31,570 nt of DNA, taken from the IMG/VR virus record IMGVR_UViG_3300025120_000297, positions 1 to 31,570 of that record, one strand, 5' to 3'. Source of the stretch: a virus. The notes under the pieces were generated by a model. That model searched no databases. It worked only from the letters and a program-made list of their open reading frames with translations, and was not told the DNA's origin. Of the stretch, positions 8,363-23,677 are shown piece after piece (the first letter of the stretch is position 1; the number at the start of each line of letters is the position of its first letter). The position numbers were made by a program, and so were the translations under genes.

Positions 8363-10540
8363 ATGGCAATAGGACGAATAACAGGACAGATGCTTTCAGC
8401 CAACCTAGCAAGGTCAGGCACAGATTTAGCATTTGAGACAAACTTATTAGCGTTAGACGTAACGAATAGTAGAGTTGGTATAGGTACAGCCTCACCGGCA
8501 ACTACACTACACATCAACGCCACGGATGCACTAAGACTACCAGCAGGTAACACGGGACAAAGACCGGGTTCAGCGGCAAATGGTGACATCAGATATAACA
8601 GCACGGAATCAACCATTGAAGGTTACGCCGGCGGTGCTTGGGCTAACTTGGCATCAGGTACACAGATCAAAGATGCGGATGAGGACACAACAATCAACGT
8701 TGAAACAAGTTCAGACGCAGACGAGATACATCTTCAAACAGGTGGGAACCAGACTGCGATCTTCAGGACTGCTACAACAGATCTTGGTGTAACAAGACTA
8801 TCAAACACAGCAACAACAATCACAGGACAAGTTACTAACGGTGACATCACACTTACTCCAAACGGAACAGGTAGTGTTGTTATTGGAAAAGCAGACATCA
8901 ACGGTGGCGCAATAGACGGCGTTACGATCGGTGCGGCGGCCGCGGCAACACAATTAGTTGTTAGTGGTGGCGTTAACATCGATGACGGTGGTGACGGTGC
9001 TATTGATGGTTGTGTGATCGGAGCCAACACAGCGGCGGCGATCTCAGGTACAACTATTGCGGCAAGTTCAAACTTAACAGTTGGCGGTAACGCTACTGTA
9101 ACAGGTAACTTGACAGTAAACGGTTCAACAACAACTATCGATTCAACAACATTGACTATTGAAGATCCGATGATCACTTTAGCGAAGAACAACTCAGGTG
9201 GAGATGCTAACACATTTGACCAAGGTTTATTCTTCAACAGAGGTTCATTAGCTAACGTTTCATGGTTATGGGATGAATCAGCAGACCAATTTGCGGCGGC
9301 AGTTACATCAGGAGAAGATGGAACTACAGCAGGTAACGTAACAATCGACAGTTACGCAGGTATCAGAGCAGGTGTTACTACTGTTTCAGACTTAGAAACT
9401 GGAGTGATATCATCAGCAGATGGTACACAGTCGGCGACTATTGCTAACTCAGGTGGAGTTATGACAATTGGAAGTTCAGTGTTGACTACTACTGATATTA
9501 ACGGTGGTTCAGTTGACGGTGCTACAATTGGTGCGGCAAGTGCCAGTACTGGTATTTTCACAACATTGACTGCGGCGAACACGCAAACAGGTACAGTTAA
9601 AGCAAACGACGGAACAGCGGCTATCACAATAGCTGACACATCAGGTGCAGTTAAGATTACAACTGCTTTTGAAGTTGACGGTGCAGGATTCATCTTCAAC
9701 GAGAGTTCAGCGGCGCTTGACTTCAGAGTAGAATCAAATGGACATGCACACGCATTGTTTGTTGATGGTTCAGAGGATCACGTAGGTATTAAGACGGCTT
9801 CCCCAGCTTATGACCTAGATATGAGTGGTTCGACTGATGCTTTCAGATTGCCATCTGGTACTACTGCACAGAGACCTACAGCGGCTTCGGGTATATTAAG
9901 ATTCAACTCTCAATCAGGTGTATTTGAAGGTTCACAAGATGGATCAACATTTGTTGAGTTAGCGACAGTTGGTGACACACCGACTTTCACTAAGGAATCT
10001 GCTACTGGAGATGGATCAACTACAACGTTCACAGGTTTCTTTAGCTCAGCTCCAGAATCAGCGAACAACGTTTTTGTTTACATCGACAACGTATACCAAG
10101 AGCCAACTGAGAACTACAGTGTTTCAAGTACTAACCTAACGTTCACATCTGCTCCACACAGTGCGGCAAGGATTTTTGCTATCACAGGTGCAGACAACAC
10201 AGCGTTGGCAACAGGTGGTATTGCGAGATCTGAGACAAGTTCAGTTAACTTTACATCATCTGCAACAACGATAATGAGTTTTAATGCGGCAACTTACAGA
10301 AGTGCTGAAATATTCATTACGTTGACAGACTCTGCAAACTCAGAGTATGCGGCTATGAAAGGTGTTGTTGTACACAACGGTGCAACTGCGTTCATCACAA
10401 TACATGCGATTACAAACACTGGAGACACGGACCTAGCGGCAATCACTGCTACGCACGATGGATCAAACACAGTGAATGTACAAGCAGTAACTACAGGTGG
10501 ACAGACAGCGGCTAAAGTACAGTACTCACTATCAACATAA
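8363..10540 (+). CDS. Modular tail fibre
   Basis: A 725-residue fibre. Residues 1-50 carry the shared attachment domain MAIGRITG..L..NL, then DLAFETNLL and LDVTNSRVGIGT. An LPAGNTGQRPG ... IRYN module is at 58-97 and a second copy (LPSGTTAQRPT) is at 497-533. A DINGGAIDGVTIGAA-type repeat occurs about 178-195, 212-230 and 378-402. The NLTVNGSTTTIDSTTLTIED ... WLWDES module is at 249-305. The GDGSTTTFT ... VYIDNVYQEPTENYSV module is at 549-607. The last 100 residues (627-725) form a beta domain repeated three times in the fibre at 11982. It is most likely a long trimeric side fibre. A terminator follows the stop by about 20 bases. Confidence 0.85.
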   Translation: MAIGRITGQMLSANLARSGTDLAFETNLLALDVTNSRVGIGTASPATTLHINATDALRLPAGNTGQRPGSAANGDIRYNSTESTIEGYAGGAWANLASGTQIKDADEDTTINVETSSDADEIHLQTGGNQTAIFRTATTDLGVTRLSNTATTITGQVTNGDITLTPNGTGSVVIGKADINGGAIDGVTIGAAAAATQLVVSGGVNIDDGGDGAIDGCVIGANTAAAISGTTIAASSNLTVGGNATVTGNLTVNGSTTTIDSTTLTIEDPMITLAKNNSGGDANTFDQGLFFNRGSLANVSWLWDESADQFAAAVTSGEDGTTAGNVTIDSYAGIRAGVTTVSDLETGVISSADGTQSATIANSGGVMTIGSSVLTTTDINGGSVDGATIGAASASTGIFTTLTAANTQTGTVKANDGTAAITIADTSGAVKITTAFEVDGAGFIFNESSAALDFRVESNGHAHALFVDGSEDHVGIKTASPAYDLDMSGSTDAFRLPSGTTAQRPTAASGILRFNSQSGVFEGSQDGSTFVELATVGDTPTFTKESATGDGSTTTFTGFFSSAPESANNVFVYIDNVYQEPTENYSVSSTNLTFTSAPHSAARIFAITGADNTALATGGIARSETSSVNFTSSATTIMSFNAATYRSAEIFITLTDSANSEYAAMKGVVVHNGATAFITIHAITNTGDTDLAAITATHDGSNTVNVQAVTTGGQTAAKVQYSLST

Positions 10541-10560
10541 TAGTTTAAGATTAATTCTAA

Positions 10561-10601
10561 ACGCCCCAATGGTAAATACTACTGTTGGGGCGTTTTTTTT
10601 T
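10561..10601 (+). terminator. Intrinsic terminator with a late promoter motif in its loop
   Basis: A 9-bp perfect stem pairs 10561-10569 (ACGCCCCAA) with 10585-10593 (TTGGGGCGT), followed by nine T residues at 10593-10601. The 15-base loop is unusually large and contains GGTAAATA. Position just after the fibre stop and before the next gene fits termination of the 8363 unit. Confidence 0.85.
10571..10578 (+). promoter_or_regulatory. Late promoter motif nested in terminator loop
   Basis: GGTAAATA lies wholly in the loop of the terminator at 10561-10601. A start about six bases downstream would give a transcript carrying only the 3' arm of the hairpin, which could not form the terminator. It is the only late motif I see ahead of the gene at 10659, whose ribosome site AGGAA is at 10652-10656. 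Confidence 0.55.
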
Positions 10602-10658
10602 AGACTAAAATTCCGCAACATAACATAAAAACACACACATGAGGGATATATAGGAACC

Positions 10659-11828
10659 ATGACAACAAGAAACTTTAGAGTACACAACGGTATATCAGTT
10701 GGTGACATCACAATCAGTGCCACTAACAACACAATTACTGGAATGTCAGCATCGGCACCATCAGCAAACGGTGACGCGGCAAACAAAAAATATGTTGATG
10801 ACCAAGCGGCGGCATCATTAACATTATCAAACAAAACTGTAACCAACGCAGTCCTTAACGGAACGTTGACTGGTACAGCCATTAAAGATGAAGACAACAT
10901 GGCATCAAACAGTGCAACTGTAGTGCCATCACAACAATCTGTTAAAGCATATGTAGATAGTGAAATCTCATCTGCTATATCAGGTTCTACTACGTTGACA
11001 TCAGGTAACACAACAGTTGTAGCAAGTGGTACATCAGTTGTAAACAATGTAAACAGTGCGGCACAGTTAACGGTAACTGAAGGTACAGTTAGAGTACACG
11101 GAAACTTAATAGTTGACGGTACAGAAACAACTATCAACACTGCGACTTTATCAGTTGAAGATAACATAATCGAAGTTAACAGAAACGTTTCAAACAACGC
11201 AGGTATGCCATCAGTTTCAGGCATCAAAGTAAACAGAGGTGAAGGTTCATCAGCAACTGAAAAAGCTCTTTTCTGGGCGTGGGACGAATCATACAACACT
11301 GGAACAGCTTCAACCGTAGGTGGTGCCTTTACTGCTTTTGCAAGAGCAGAAGGTGATTCATCAACACCAGCAACAGCTGACTTGGCCGATATGAGATGTG
11401 CAGTACTACACGCGACATCAACTGCGGCACAATATGCGGACGTTGCCGAGCGTTTCGAAGCAGACGCTCCAATGATAGCAGGTGCAGTAGTAGAAGTAGG
11501 CGGATCAGCAGAAATAACAGAATCAACTTCAGAAATGTCTGAAAATGTTTTTGGTGTTATCTCTGACATGCCAGCTTATGCCATGAACGAAGCGGCAGGT
11601 AACAATGACTCACACCCATACGTAGCAATGACAGGTAGAACACCGGTTAGAGTTACAGGTGCGGTAACAAAAGGTCAAAGATTAGTTACTTCAAGTGTTA
11701 AAGGTTGTGCTAGAGCAGTAGCGACAGGTGAGTCAATCTCTCCTTTCAACGTTATTGGTAGAGCATTAGAAAGCTCAACAGATGCAGGTATCAAATTGGT
11801 AAACTGTGCAGTGAGAACTAACAACTAA
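10659..11828 (+). CDS. Fibre-type structural protein with IMC/Peptidase G2-like C-terminus
   Basis: A 389-residue protein beginning MTTRNFRVHNGISVGDI. The fibre module LIVDGTETTINTATLSVEDN ... LFWAWDES (150-210) is shared with the fibres at 2670 and 8363. The C-terminal part (about 258-389) reads QYADVAERFEADAP, GAVVEVGG, FGVISDMPA, VAMTGRTPVRVTG and GQRLVTSS. This order resembles the C-terminal intramolecular-chaperone/autoprocessing domains (Peptidase G2 type) of phage appendage proteins, which assist trimer folding. Autocleavage is not proven here, and I cannot point to the catalytic residues. It starts from its own late motif and is closed by a strong terminator, so it is a single-gene unit. 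It may be a short fibre, or it may help its neighbours fold. Confidence 0.7.
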   Translation: MTTRNFRVHNGISVGDITISATNNTITGMSASAPSANGDAANKKYVDDQAAASLTLSNKTVTNAVLNGTLTGTAIKDEDNMASNSATVVPSQQSVKAYVDSEISSAISGSTTLTSGNTTVVASGTSVVNNVNSAAQLTVTEGTVRVHGNLIVDGTETTINTATLSVEDNIIEVNRNVSNNAGMPSVSGIKVNRGEGSSATEKALFWAWDESYNTGTASTVGGAFTAFARAEGDSSTPATADLADMRCAVLHATSTAAQYADVAERFEADAPMIAGAVVEVGGSAEITESTSEMSENVFGVISDMPAYAMNEAAGNNDSHPYVAMTGRTPVRVTGAVTKGQRLVTSSVKGCARAVATGESISPFNVIGRALESSTDAGIKLVNCAVRTNN

Positions 11829-11855: not shown

Positions 11856-11883
11856 AAAGGGCGGCTTCGGTCGCCCTTTTTTT
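11856..11883 (+). terminator. Intrinsic terminator with UUCG tetraloop
   Basis: A 10-bp stem (11856-11865 with 11870-11879, one G-U pair) is closed by a C(TTCG)G tetraloop and followed by a T run to 11883. It ends the unit of the gene at 10659 and lies eight bases before the next late motif. Confidence 0.9.
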
Positions 11884-11890
11884 GTGGCGG

Positions 11891-11898
11891 TATAAATA
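11891..11898 (+). promoter_or_regulatory. Late promoter (TATAAATA) with long leader
   Basis: An exact T4 late consensus TATAAATA lies 83 bases before the ATG at 11982. The leader carries AAGGAG at 11968-11973 and an inverted repeat just before it. Confidence 0.8.
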
Positions 11899-11981: not shown

Positions 11982-14363
11982 ATGGCCATAGGTCGTATAA
12001 CAGGGTCGGTATTAAAGTCCAATCTGACTAGGAATGGCGTCGACCTTGCATTTGAAACAAACCTACTGTATCTCGACGTAACGAACAGTCGTGTAGGTAT
12101 TGGTACTTCTGAACCCACAACAACACTACAAGTAAACGGAACAACTACAACTGCTGGCCTTACAGCCAACGGTGCAGTTAATATTGATGGTACGGGTACG
12201 TCCAATATGGATAACGTCATCATAGGTGCCAACACAGCGGCGGCCATCACAGGTACAACTATTGCAGGCACAACAGCCACACTCACAAATACAACAACAT
12301 CAGACAGTGTTTTAATTACTACAACAGAAGATTCAAGCACAGCAGGTCCAGTCATCGCATTGAAAAGAAATAGTGGTTCTCCTGCAGATGCAGACTACCT
12401 GGGACAGATCAAGTTCAAAGGTGAGAACGATGCTGACCAAGAGGTAAACTATGCAAAAATTACAGGAAAAATACTAGATGCATCAGACGGAACAGAAGAC
12501 GGTATATTAGAATTTTCACATATCAAAGCAGGATCACAAGTAATCACAGGAAGATGGAGATCGGATGGATTGCAATTATTGAACGGTACAAACTTAACTG
12601 TTGCAGGTAACACCACAGTAACAGGTTCACTGATCGCAGATGGGTTGAGTTATCCAACGTCAGATGGAAGTGCAGGACAGGTTATAAAAACAGACGGTAG
12701 CGGAACTTTAAGTTTCACAACAATATCTACTAATTCTGTATCACAAGGAAACTCAAATGTAACAGTAACTGATTCAGGCACAGGGGCAATAACAATAGCG
12801 GCAGATGGCAACACCATAATAACAATGAACGCCACTACGGCATTAGATGCATCTGCTGTGACCAATGCAGTAAGGCTACCAAATGGTACGACAGCACAAA
12901 GACCCTCTGGTTCTCTTGGAATGATAAGGTACAACAGTAGCACTGACAACATAGAAGGCTACACTACATCAGGTGGATGGGCACAACTAGGTGCTACCAC
13001 TAGCACAACAGAAAATACAGACGATACAGCCACAGGAAGTGCCACAGCTATAAGCACATCGGCACAGATTATTAATCAGTTCACTACTGACAGTTTTGAC
13101 AGTGCATTTTATCTTGCTGTTGTAAGAGATGAAATAAATGATTCTATTTCGACCGCAAAATACAGTGTTGCACAAAACGATACATCTGCCGTTGTCGCAA
13201 CTTCTCATGTTGTAAGACAGACAGCCAGTTTGGCTGACGTGTCCATAGATGCAGAAATTGGTGCAGGGAGCATGAGGCTGAAGGCCACTGGTTCGTCTGT
13301 TGTAAATTCAATATCTTTCTACAGGATAGGTTTAGGTGATAACACGACAGCAGGAACCACGGGAAATGTGAGGACTGTTATAAACACAGATGTTGACTCA
13401 ACTTCTGAATCGTTAGACAGCTTTGCACATTCAAGTTACAGAGGAGCAAAATACTTTATATCTGTAAACAACACGGCTAAAAGTGAAGTGTCAAATGTTG
13501 AGGCATTGGTCGTCCATAATGGATCTGACGCTTTCATAAATGTCTATGGAACAGTCAACACAGGAAACAATGATTTAATTAATCTTACTGCGGCCATAGA
13601 CGGAGGCAACGTTGTAGTAAGTGTGATAGGAAATGAACCAAATTTAAGAGTAACCGCATACAGAATTTTATTAGCTGATTCAGAAAGTGGCAGTAGCGGT
13701 GACAATGTCAACATAGTCGGAACCACGAATGTCAGCTCAACTGCTACCCAAATTGATTCATTCAACAACGAAACATACACAGGAGCGTTCTATATTTTCA
13801 CAGGTTTCAATGCAGGCGGGGGTGAAGCCAGTATTTCAGAAGTCTCGGTTGTGTCCAACGATGACGCCTACATTGCCACAGGACCTGTTGTAAATTCAAC
13901 AGGCACTGATCAACTTTCTTTTACAGCGACCCAATCGGGCGCCAATGTAAGCGTAAAAGCGGCCAGTACCTCTGGTGCCAGCACAGCGGTCAGTGGATAC
14001 AGAGTACACATGCTTCGAGGAAATGCTGGTGCATCGACGGCAGACACAGTGTTGGTATCAACAACACAAACCATTACAGGTAATAAAACATTTGATAAAC
14101 CTCTAATTTTAAATGTCAACGCAGATCCGTCAACTGTAACAAACTCCGCACACATCTATGCCAAGGACGAATCATCGAGTGCAGAAGTGTTCGTGAGAGA
14201 TGAAGCAGGAAATGTTACTAAAATATCTCCACACAACGATGAAGGTGAGTGGGAATACTATTCAAGAAATACCAAAACAGGCAAAACTGTAAGAGTTAAC
14301 ATGGAAGAAATGATCAGAGATATTGAAAAACTTACAGGTAAAACTTACATCAAAAACAATTAA
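11982..14363 (+). CDS. Modular tail fibre with three tandem beta domains
   Basis: A 793-residue fibre. Residues 1-50 (MAIGRITGSVLKSNL ... DLAFETNLLYLDVTNSRVGIGT) are nearly the same as the N-terminus at 8363, so both probably attach to the same site. LPNGTTAQRPSGSLGMIRYN is at 299-318. Three degenerate copies of a domain of about 98 residues follow at about 357-453, 468-566 and 582-679; one copy ends the fibre at 8363. The C-terminus has SAHIYAKDESSSAEVFVRDE, SPHNDEGEWEYYSRNTKTGK and VNMEEMIRDIEKLTG. This ending is common in environmental phage fibres and may be a trimer cap or folding tail. It is the last fibre gene of the island, and its TAA stop interlocks with the Nudix stop (TTAA, 14360-14363). 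Confidence 0.85.
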   Translation: MAIGRITGSVLKSNLTRNGVDLAFETNLLYLDVTNSRVGIGTSEPTTTLQVNGTTTTAGLTANGAVNIDGTGTSNMDNVIIGANTAAAITGTTIAGTTATLTNTTTSDSVLITTTEDSSTAGPVIALKRNSGSPADADYLGQIKFKGENDADQEVNYAKITGKILDASDGTEDGILEFSHIKAGSQVITGRWRSDGLQLLNGTNLTVAGNTTVTGSLIADGLSYPTSDGSAGQVIKTDGSGTLSFTTISTNSVSQGNSNVTVTDSGTGAITIAADGNTIITMNATTALDASAVTNAVRLPNGTTAQRPSGSLGMIRYNSSTDNIEGYTTSGGWAQLGATTSTTENTDDTATGSATAISTSAQIINQFTTDSFDSAFYLAVVRDEINDSISTAKYSVAQNDTSAVVATSHVVRQTASLADVSIDAEIGAGSMRLKATGSSVVNSISFYRIGLGDNTTAGTTGNVRTVINTDVDSTSESLDSFAHSSYRGAKYFISVNNTAKSEVSNVEALVVHNGSDAFINVYGTVNTGNNDLINLTAAIDGGNVVVSVIGNEPNLRVTAYRILLADSESGSSGDNVNIVGTTNVSSTATQIDSFNNETYTGAFYIFTGFNAGGGEASISEVSVVSNDDAYIATGPVVNSTGTDQLSFTATQSGANVSVKAASTSGASTAVSGYRVHMLRGNAGASTADTVLVSTTQTITGNKTFDKPLILNVNADPSTVTNSAHIYAKDESSSAEVFVRDEAGNVTKISPHNDEGEWEYYSRNTKTGKTVRVNMEEMIRDIEKLTGKTYIKNN
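13050..14018 (+). repeat. Three tandem ~98-residue protein domain repeats in fibre
   Basis: Units at about 13050-13340, 13383-13679 and 13725-14018 each start with a pattern like S.S..I.SF....Y..A.Y.....N, continue with a central VVHNG or VVSND turn, and end with V...A YR..L. They are diverged at the DNA level and detectable only in protein. A fourth copy lies at 10241-10537 in the other fibre. Confidence 0.65.
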
Positions 14364-23637: not shown

Positions 23638-23664
23638 AAAAGCGTCTTTATAGGCGCTTTTTTT
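23638..23664 (+). terminator. Intrinsic terminator after gp19
   Basis: An 8-bp stem (23639-23646 with 23653-23660, one G-U pair), a six-base loop TTTATA, and a T run to 23664. It lies six bases before the next late motif, the same terminator-then-promoter order as at 11856-11898. Confidence 0.85.
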
Positions 23665-23669
23665 GTGAC

Positions 23670-23677
23670 TATAAATA
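23670..23677 (+). promoter_or_regulatory. Late promoter (TATAAATA)
   Basis: An exact late consensus ends five bases before the ATG at 23683. Transcription would start on or next to that codon. Confidence 0.75.

Follow-up and report, generated by a model that had tools for sequence, protein, structure and literature searches.

The sequence analyzed here (the window; 31,570 nucleotides in full) is a 31.6-kb fragment from a marine T4-like myovirus, in which sheath, tube, and terminase genes are present. In a sheath comparison, its nearest named relatives were Atu_ph07, PA5oct, and Phosso. A plus-strand gene at 8363 to 10540 encodes a predicted virion/fiber structural protein (725 aa; PHROG matches to virion structural families), and another at 10659 to 11828, also on the plus strand, encodes a predicted virion structural protein (389 aa; PHROG matches; 366 relatives in viral contigs). 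Between these genes, the 43 bases from 10559 to 10601 read AAACGCCCCAATGGTA AATAC TACTGTTGGGGCGTTT TTTTTT on the plus strand. The N-terminal ~54 aa encoded by gene 8363 are repeated where the next fiber-like gene begins (window position 11982), which suggests a repeated virion attachment module.

The original prediction had described this element as a 9-bp stem with a 15-base loop; computed folding gave instead a hairpin of 16 pairs (10559 to 10574 with 10580 to 10595) closing a 5-nt apical loop, AATAC (10575 to 10579; fold and scan). The stem consists of 11 Watson-Crick pairs followed by five inner ones (i.e., U-G, G-U, G-C, U-A, and A-U), of which pair 12 (U-G) and pair 13 (G-U) are of the G-U type. 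The minimum free energy is -23.8 kcal/mol (z = -8.2 relative to mononucleotide shuffles). The nine Ts described originally are present (10593 to 10601), and the sequence has the features of an intrinsic terminator, namely a stable GC-rich stem-loop with a U-tract directly after it. The 16-nt 5' arm (10559 to 10574) is delimited by sequence, fold, and covariation, and the 3' arm (10580 to 10595) by the fold and by compensatory changes with the 5' arm.

The octamer GGTAAATA (10571 to 10578; core TAAATA at 10573 to 10578) lies partly in this stem; its first four bases (GGTA) end the 5' arm and the other four stand in the 5-base loop. In T4 late promoters, TATAAATA spans positions -13 to -6 and transcription starts 6 nt past the octamer (PMC1524935). 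Applied to the plus-strand octamer of the window, this rule predicts a start at 10584, 6 nt past the last A of the motif, which is the same base near which the start had originally been placed. According to the computed fold, RNA begun at 10584 folds weakly and cannot form the terminator hairpin, in agreement with the earlier claim about RNA starting in the loop.

TAAATA is not rare by itself in the window (20 observed versus 27.7 expected). What speaks against chance is where the motif lies and how well it is kept, at all 50 orthologous junctions with the same upstream gene and at all 43 with another one (see below). The copy in the element is the only TAAATA on the plus strand between 8318 and 11829, and the description of it as the sole late motif before gene 10659 was thus accurate. 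The two plus-strand side-by-side comparators that had been proposed are also real according to scan and fold: the one at 11856 to 11898 has a terminator (loop TTCG) with TATAAATA soon after the stem, and that at 23638 to 23677 has a terminator and then TATAAATA. Both modules recur in relatives. Side-by-side modules, with TATAAATA a few nucleotides past the T-tract of a terminator, were observed at structural-gene junctions in contigs G001, G002, G003, G005, G007, and G009.

TAAATA as a probable late-promoter core

Summed over seven genomes, TAAATA occurred 213 times in the sense orientation and 62 times in the antisense orientation within 110 nt upstream of open reading frames, while permuted A4T2 hexamers averaged ~117 in the same zones. 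A gp55-like sigma factor (phrog_234 or phrog_12791) was found in 8 of the 15 relative contigs searched, and its carriers include the nested-element contigs G001 and G002. The octamer GGTAAATA also occurs unpaired at 2649 to 2656 of the window, 13 nt before the ATG of a 1,228-aa gene (2670), and this bare copy is kept at the counterpart position in G001, G002, G003, and G005. We conclude from these distributions that TAAATA is evidently the promoter core of the phage family to which the window belongs. The position of the copy at 2649 to 2656 allows a very short leader at most.

With respect to the T4-type octamer, the core was found at every orthologous junction, and the first two bases deviate, being GG here versus TA in T4, but bare GGTAAATA is kept ahead of other structural genes as well. 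The T at -13 is weakly conserved among T4 relatives, the Aeh1 version being CTAAATA (PMC1524935), and cyanophage late promoters have the form NATAAATA (PMC2984593). Among 505 pooled terminators, TAAATA was found in 10, versus 1 to 8 for other A/T hexamers; this lead is modest and not decisive, and our case therefore rests on conservation rather than on genome-wide enrichment. A sigma-70 reading was considered and dropped.

Conservation of the motif and covariation of the stem

Since a megablast search of the region against isolate phages returned no match, relatives were taken from IMG/VR by protein. The relatives of gene 10659 and those of gene 8363 were each collected in this manner, and these two sets are therefore not selected by loop. 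A third set, chosen by the exact loop, also entered the pool, which yielded 113 distinct upstream regions; the loop was fixed in the first pattern search and free in the later gene-based sets. Fifty-three regions were flagged as having a gene 8363-type upstream gene, and the removal of three spurious ones (21% identity) left 50 orthologous junctions.

TAAATA is present in all 50 of these junctions, and a hairpin surrounds it in 46 (i.e., 45 over the threshold, among them the degenerate L258, plus L133 with one mismatch). The four junctions with no hairpin around the motif are L223, L253, L257, and L246. In the first three, the terminator is gone and GGTAAATA is retained. In L246, a terminator with a plain loop (GCCCTAACATCACGTTAGGGCGTTTTTTT) is followed ~50 nt on by CGCATAAATACC, with the bare motif CATAAATA; this junction is evidently a case in which terminator and promoter have been parted naturally at the same site. 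No homologues were encountered that pair an unrelated loop with a different type of promoter, a finding that had been named as speaking against the element: the loop of L246 is the only unrelated one, and its TAAATA stands apart, downstream of the terminator. In L253 and L255, which lie before a gene 10659 homologue and have lost the terminator, an inverted repeat (CAATAGAACGTTCTATTG) that lacks a T-tract is located just past the promoter, at the predicted beginning of the transcript. In L021, L022, L031, L034, L044, and others, which have a different gene upstream of the gene 10659 homologue, the promoter core runs into or directly borders the TAA stop codon of that gene, and in several cases bases are common to both.

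The 60 regions with other upstream genes comprise 43 true gene starts, all of which have a bare TAAATA, typically ~38 nt ahead of the ATG, and 17 matches within coding sequence (30 to 41% identity). The C terminus of gene 8363 sits before the element in every nested-type junction, and the exact-loop search met the terminator form only at the gene 8363/10659-type junction. A per-genome search in the family of the window found exactly one nested element per nested-type genome, at this same junction.

These data bear on the simplest alternative, in which the element is a plain terminator whose loop motif has no function or is left over, with expression of gene 10659 depending on read-through or on a promoter within 10602 to 10658. 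Large loops are tolerated in terminators, the GG bases deviate from the T4 consensus, and the downstream spacer is AT-rich; the interval between hairpin and ATG may leave space for an unrecognized promoter. However, TAAATA is fixed in 50 of 50 junctions despite stem turnover and survives the loss of the terminator, gene 10659 has no other TAAATA ahead of it, and the spacer downstream of the hairpin is poorly conserved among orthologous junctions. We regard the plain-terminator explanation as improbable.

We then compared 39 distinct orthologous hairpins, whose stem arms include CGCCCCAA/TTGGGGCG, CGCCCTAA/TTAGGGCG, CGCCCTGA/TCAGGGCG, CGCTCTAA/TTAGAGCG, ACCCCTTA/TAAGGGGT, GCCTCTTA/TAAGAGGT, and CTCCCTAA/TTAGGGAG, among others. 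Across these hairpins, 96.5% of the cells are paired, versus 88.9% when whole arms were re-dealt, and none of 2,000 such re-deals reached 96.5%. In a FastTree phylogeny of 38 taxa built from the upstream coding sequence, parsimony counts gave 10 changes per side at pair 9, with pairing kept in all but one sequence, and six and four changes on the two sides of pair 10, again with pairing kept. The outer stem is evidently maintained by pairing, which points to a structure that acts at the RNA level and is under selection.

The motif follows a different pattern. TAAATA shows zero changes on the same tree. At pairs 15 and 16, where motif and stem overlap, no change was counted in the arm that carries the motif, against 2 and 7, respectively, in the opposite arm; pair 16 is broken in 9 of the 39 hairpins. 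Since the overlap base is fixed while its partner varies and breaks pair 16, the motif is maintained by something besides RNA pairing (i.e., it is selected as sequence and not as stem). The combination of fixed TAAATA loops and covarying stems, which had been proposed as a check, was thus observed in related phage sequences.

A fixed loop on a varying stem is also typical of protein-bound hairpins, and the element could in principle be an RNA-level regulatory element in which some protein or small RNA recognizes the loop and governs, for instance, termination or stability at the 3' end of the upstream mRNA. We consider this highly improbable, given that TAAATA occupies the same place even where the hairpin is missing, that it matches the core of the late promoters used by T4-like phages (PMC1524935, PMC2984593), and that this core recurs within an unrelated stem in another group of phages (see below). 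An Rfam search of the element returned sub-threshold matches only. A long inverted repeat around a promoter also recalls the DNA hairpin promoters of the N4 virion RNA polymerase type, in which an extruded repeat is read as a DNA structure. The inner stem retains G-T oppositions, though, which pair in RNA and not in DNA, and a gp55-type sigma factor was found. Moreover, orthologous and homologous promoters that lack the repeat keep TAAATA, with no sign of a requirement for the hairpin, and the N4-like reading, to which we attach almost no credence, was dropped.

A second nested element upstream of gp13

A control scan of isolate genomes identified a nested element in the Synechococcus cyanophage S-PM2 at 66785 (AAATCCCTATCTG-ATAAATA-CAGGTAGGGATTT-TT), where it fills the 52-nt gap from ORF095 to gp13. 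Relatives carry other stems around TAAATA upstream of gp13 (i.e., AAGTCCCTGCCTG/CAGGTAGGGACTT, AATCCCTGCTTC/GAAGTAGGGATT, and AAATCCCTTCTT/AAGAAGGGATTT). Among uncultured gp13 relatives, TAAATA was present in 46 of 46 distinct upstream regions and was nested in 35 of them, with covarying stems; the loop of the nested elements is [A/C]TAAATA in nearly all. Since neither the stems nor the genes at the gp13 site are related to those of the window, the simplest reading is that the gp13 element apparently had an independent origin.

In three regions before gp13 (L526, L529, and L536), the T-tract of the terminator passes directly into TATAAATA (CTCTTTTTTTATAAATA), a form that is evidently intermediate between the side-by-side and nested arrangements. 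Another TAAATA was observed soon after CTCTTTTTTTATAAATA in the same three regions. The suggestion that nesting arose by compaction of the side-by-side arrangement is supported in part, in that separated, abutting, and nested states all exist; the change may have run in either direction.

The isolate-genome scan found no nested elements in T4, HTVC008M, PA5oct, or Aeh1. Weak leads were a single nested candidate with a 20-nt loop in Syn9 and, in the first 400 kb of Atu_ph07, a terminator-like hairpin with a 21-nt loop holding TAAATA (L394; minus strand near 123, beside an ATG).

Proposed mechanism and relation to known systems

We judge the element, from the sequence comparisons, to be real, conserved, and convergent. 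In all likelihood, it is a composite of a terminator and a late promoter. Under this model, a polymerase arriving from gene 8363, whose transcript is presumably the one to be ended, would transcribe the entire inverted repeat, and the RNA would fold into the GC-rich hairpin and cause release of the polymerase at the U-tract, near 10593 to 10601. A late-modified polymerase carrying a gp55-type sigma factor would bind the motif GGTAAATA in the DNA and begin near 10584, yielding an RNA that contains only the 3' arm, forms no terminator hairpin, and extends into gene 10659. Stop and restart would thereby fit within ~43 bp, the probable purpose being to close one virion mRNA and open the next.

The same bases could be used twice because the hairpin acts only on fully copied RNA and the promoter acts on DNA. 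The proposed insulation would hold for the RNA but not for the promoter DNA, since the upstream polymerase would have to cross the nested promoter before it is released. A further idea, which we consider rather unlikely, is that nesting links upstream traffic to downstream starts, through occlusion under heavy upstream transcription or through local reuse of released polymerase, and so would act as a self-contained ratio controller of neighboring virion genes that has arisen at least twice in T4-like phages.

If the composite reading is right, the same bases can serve as terminator and promoter at once. It would also provide a compact natural stop-and-restart part of ~35 to 43 bp, apparently independent in two phage groups, and annotation rules that make terminators and promoters mutually exclusive will miss such late starts. 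S-PM2 on Synechococcus WH7803 offers a cultured system with the gp13-type element.

The window element shares with the T4 late promoter (gp55/gp33/gp45) the TAAATA core and a location upstream of structural genes; the T4 promoter needs no -35 element, and T4 relatives relax its first bases (PMC1524935). It differs from that promoter in that the motif lies inside a terminator stem-loop and its first two bases are GG. The rho-independent terminators of T4-like phages have a GC-rich stem, a short loop, and a T-tract, as does the window element. The loop of T4 terminators is usually 4 nt (PMC2988022), whereas the loop region of the window element is a conserved promoter. The side-by-side terminators and late promoters of the window, T4, HTVC008M, S-PM2, and Aeh1 have the same order and presumably the same purpose as the nested form, but their parts have no common sequence and the polymerase halts ahead of the promoter core. 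Among the full texts open to searching, none describes a promoter located in the loop of a terminator; as far as this literature shows, the parts are known and their combination (i.e., a promoter in a terminator hairpin) is new.

The nearest precedent is T4 gene e. In this gene, I-TevI, and others, a late promoter lies within a hairpin that sequesters the ribosome-binding site (RBS), and late RNA escapes the translation block (PMC3014915, PMC2988022). A late start within the hairpin sequence at these genes produces an RNA without the 5' strand, as is predicted for the window element. The hairpin of the gene e type blocks translation, whereas that of the window, which ends at 10595, is set apart from the start codon at 10659 and does not sequester the RBS; it would end transcription of the upstream gene. 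By analogy, the window element appears to apply the same logic to termination.
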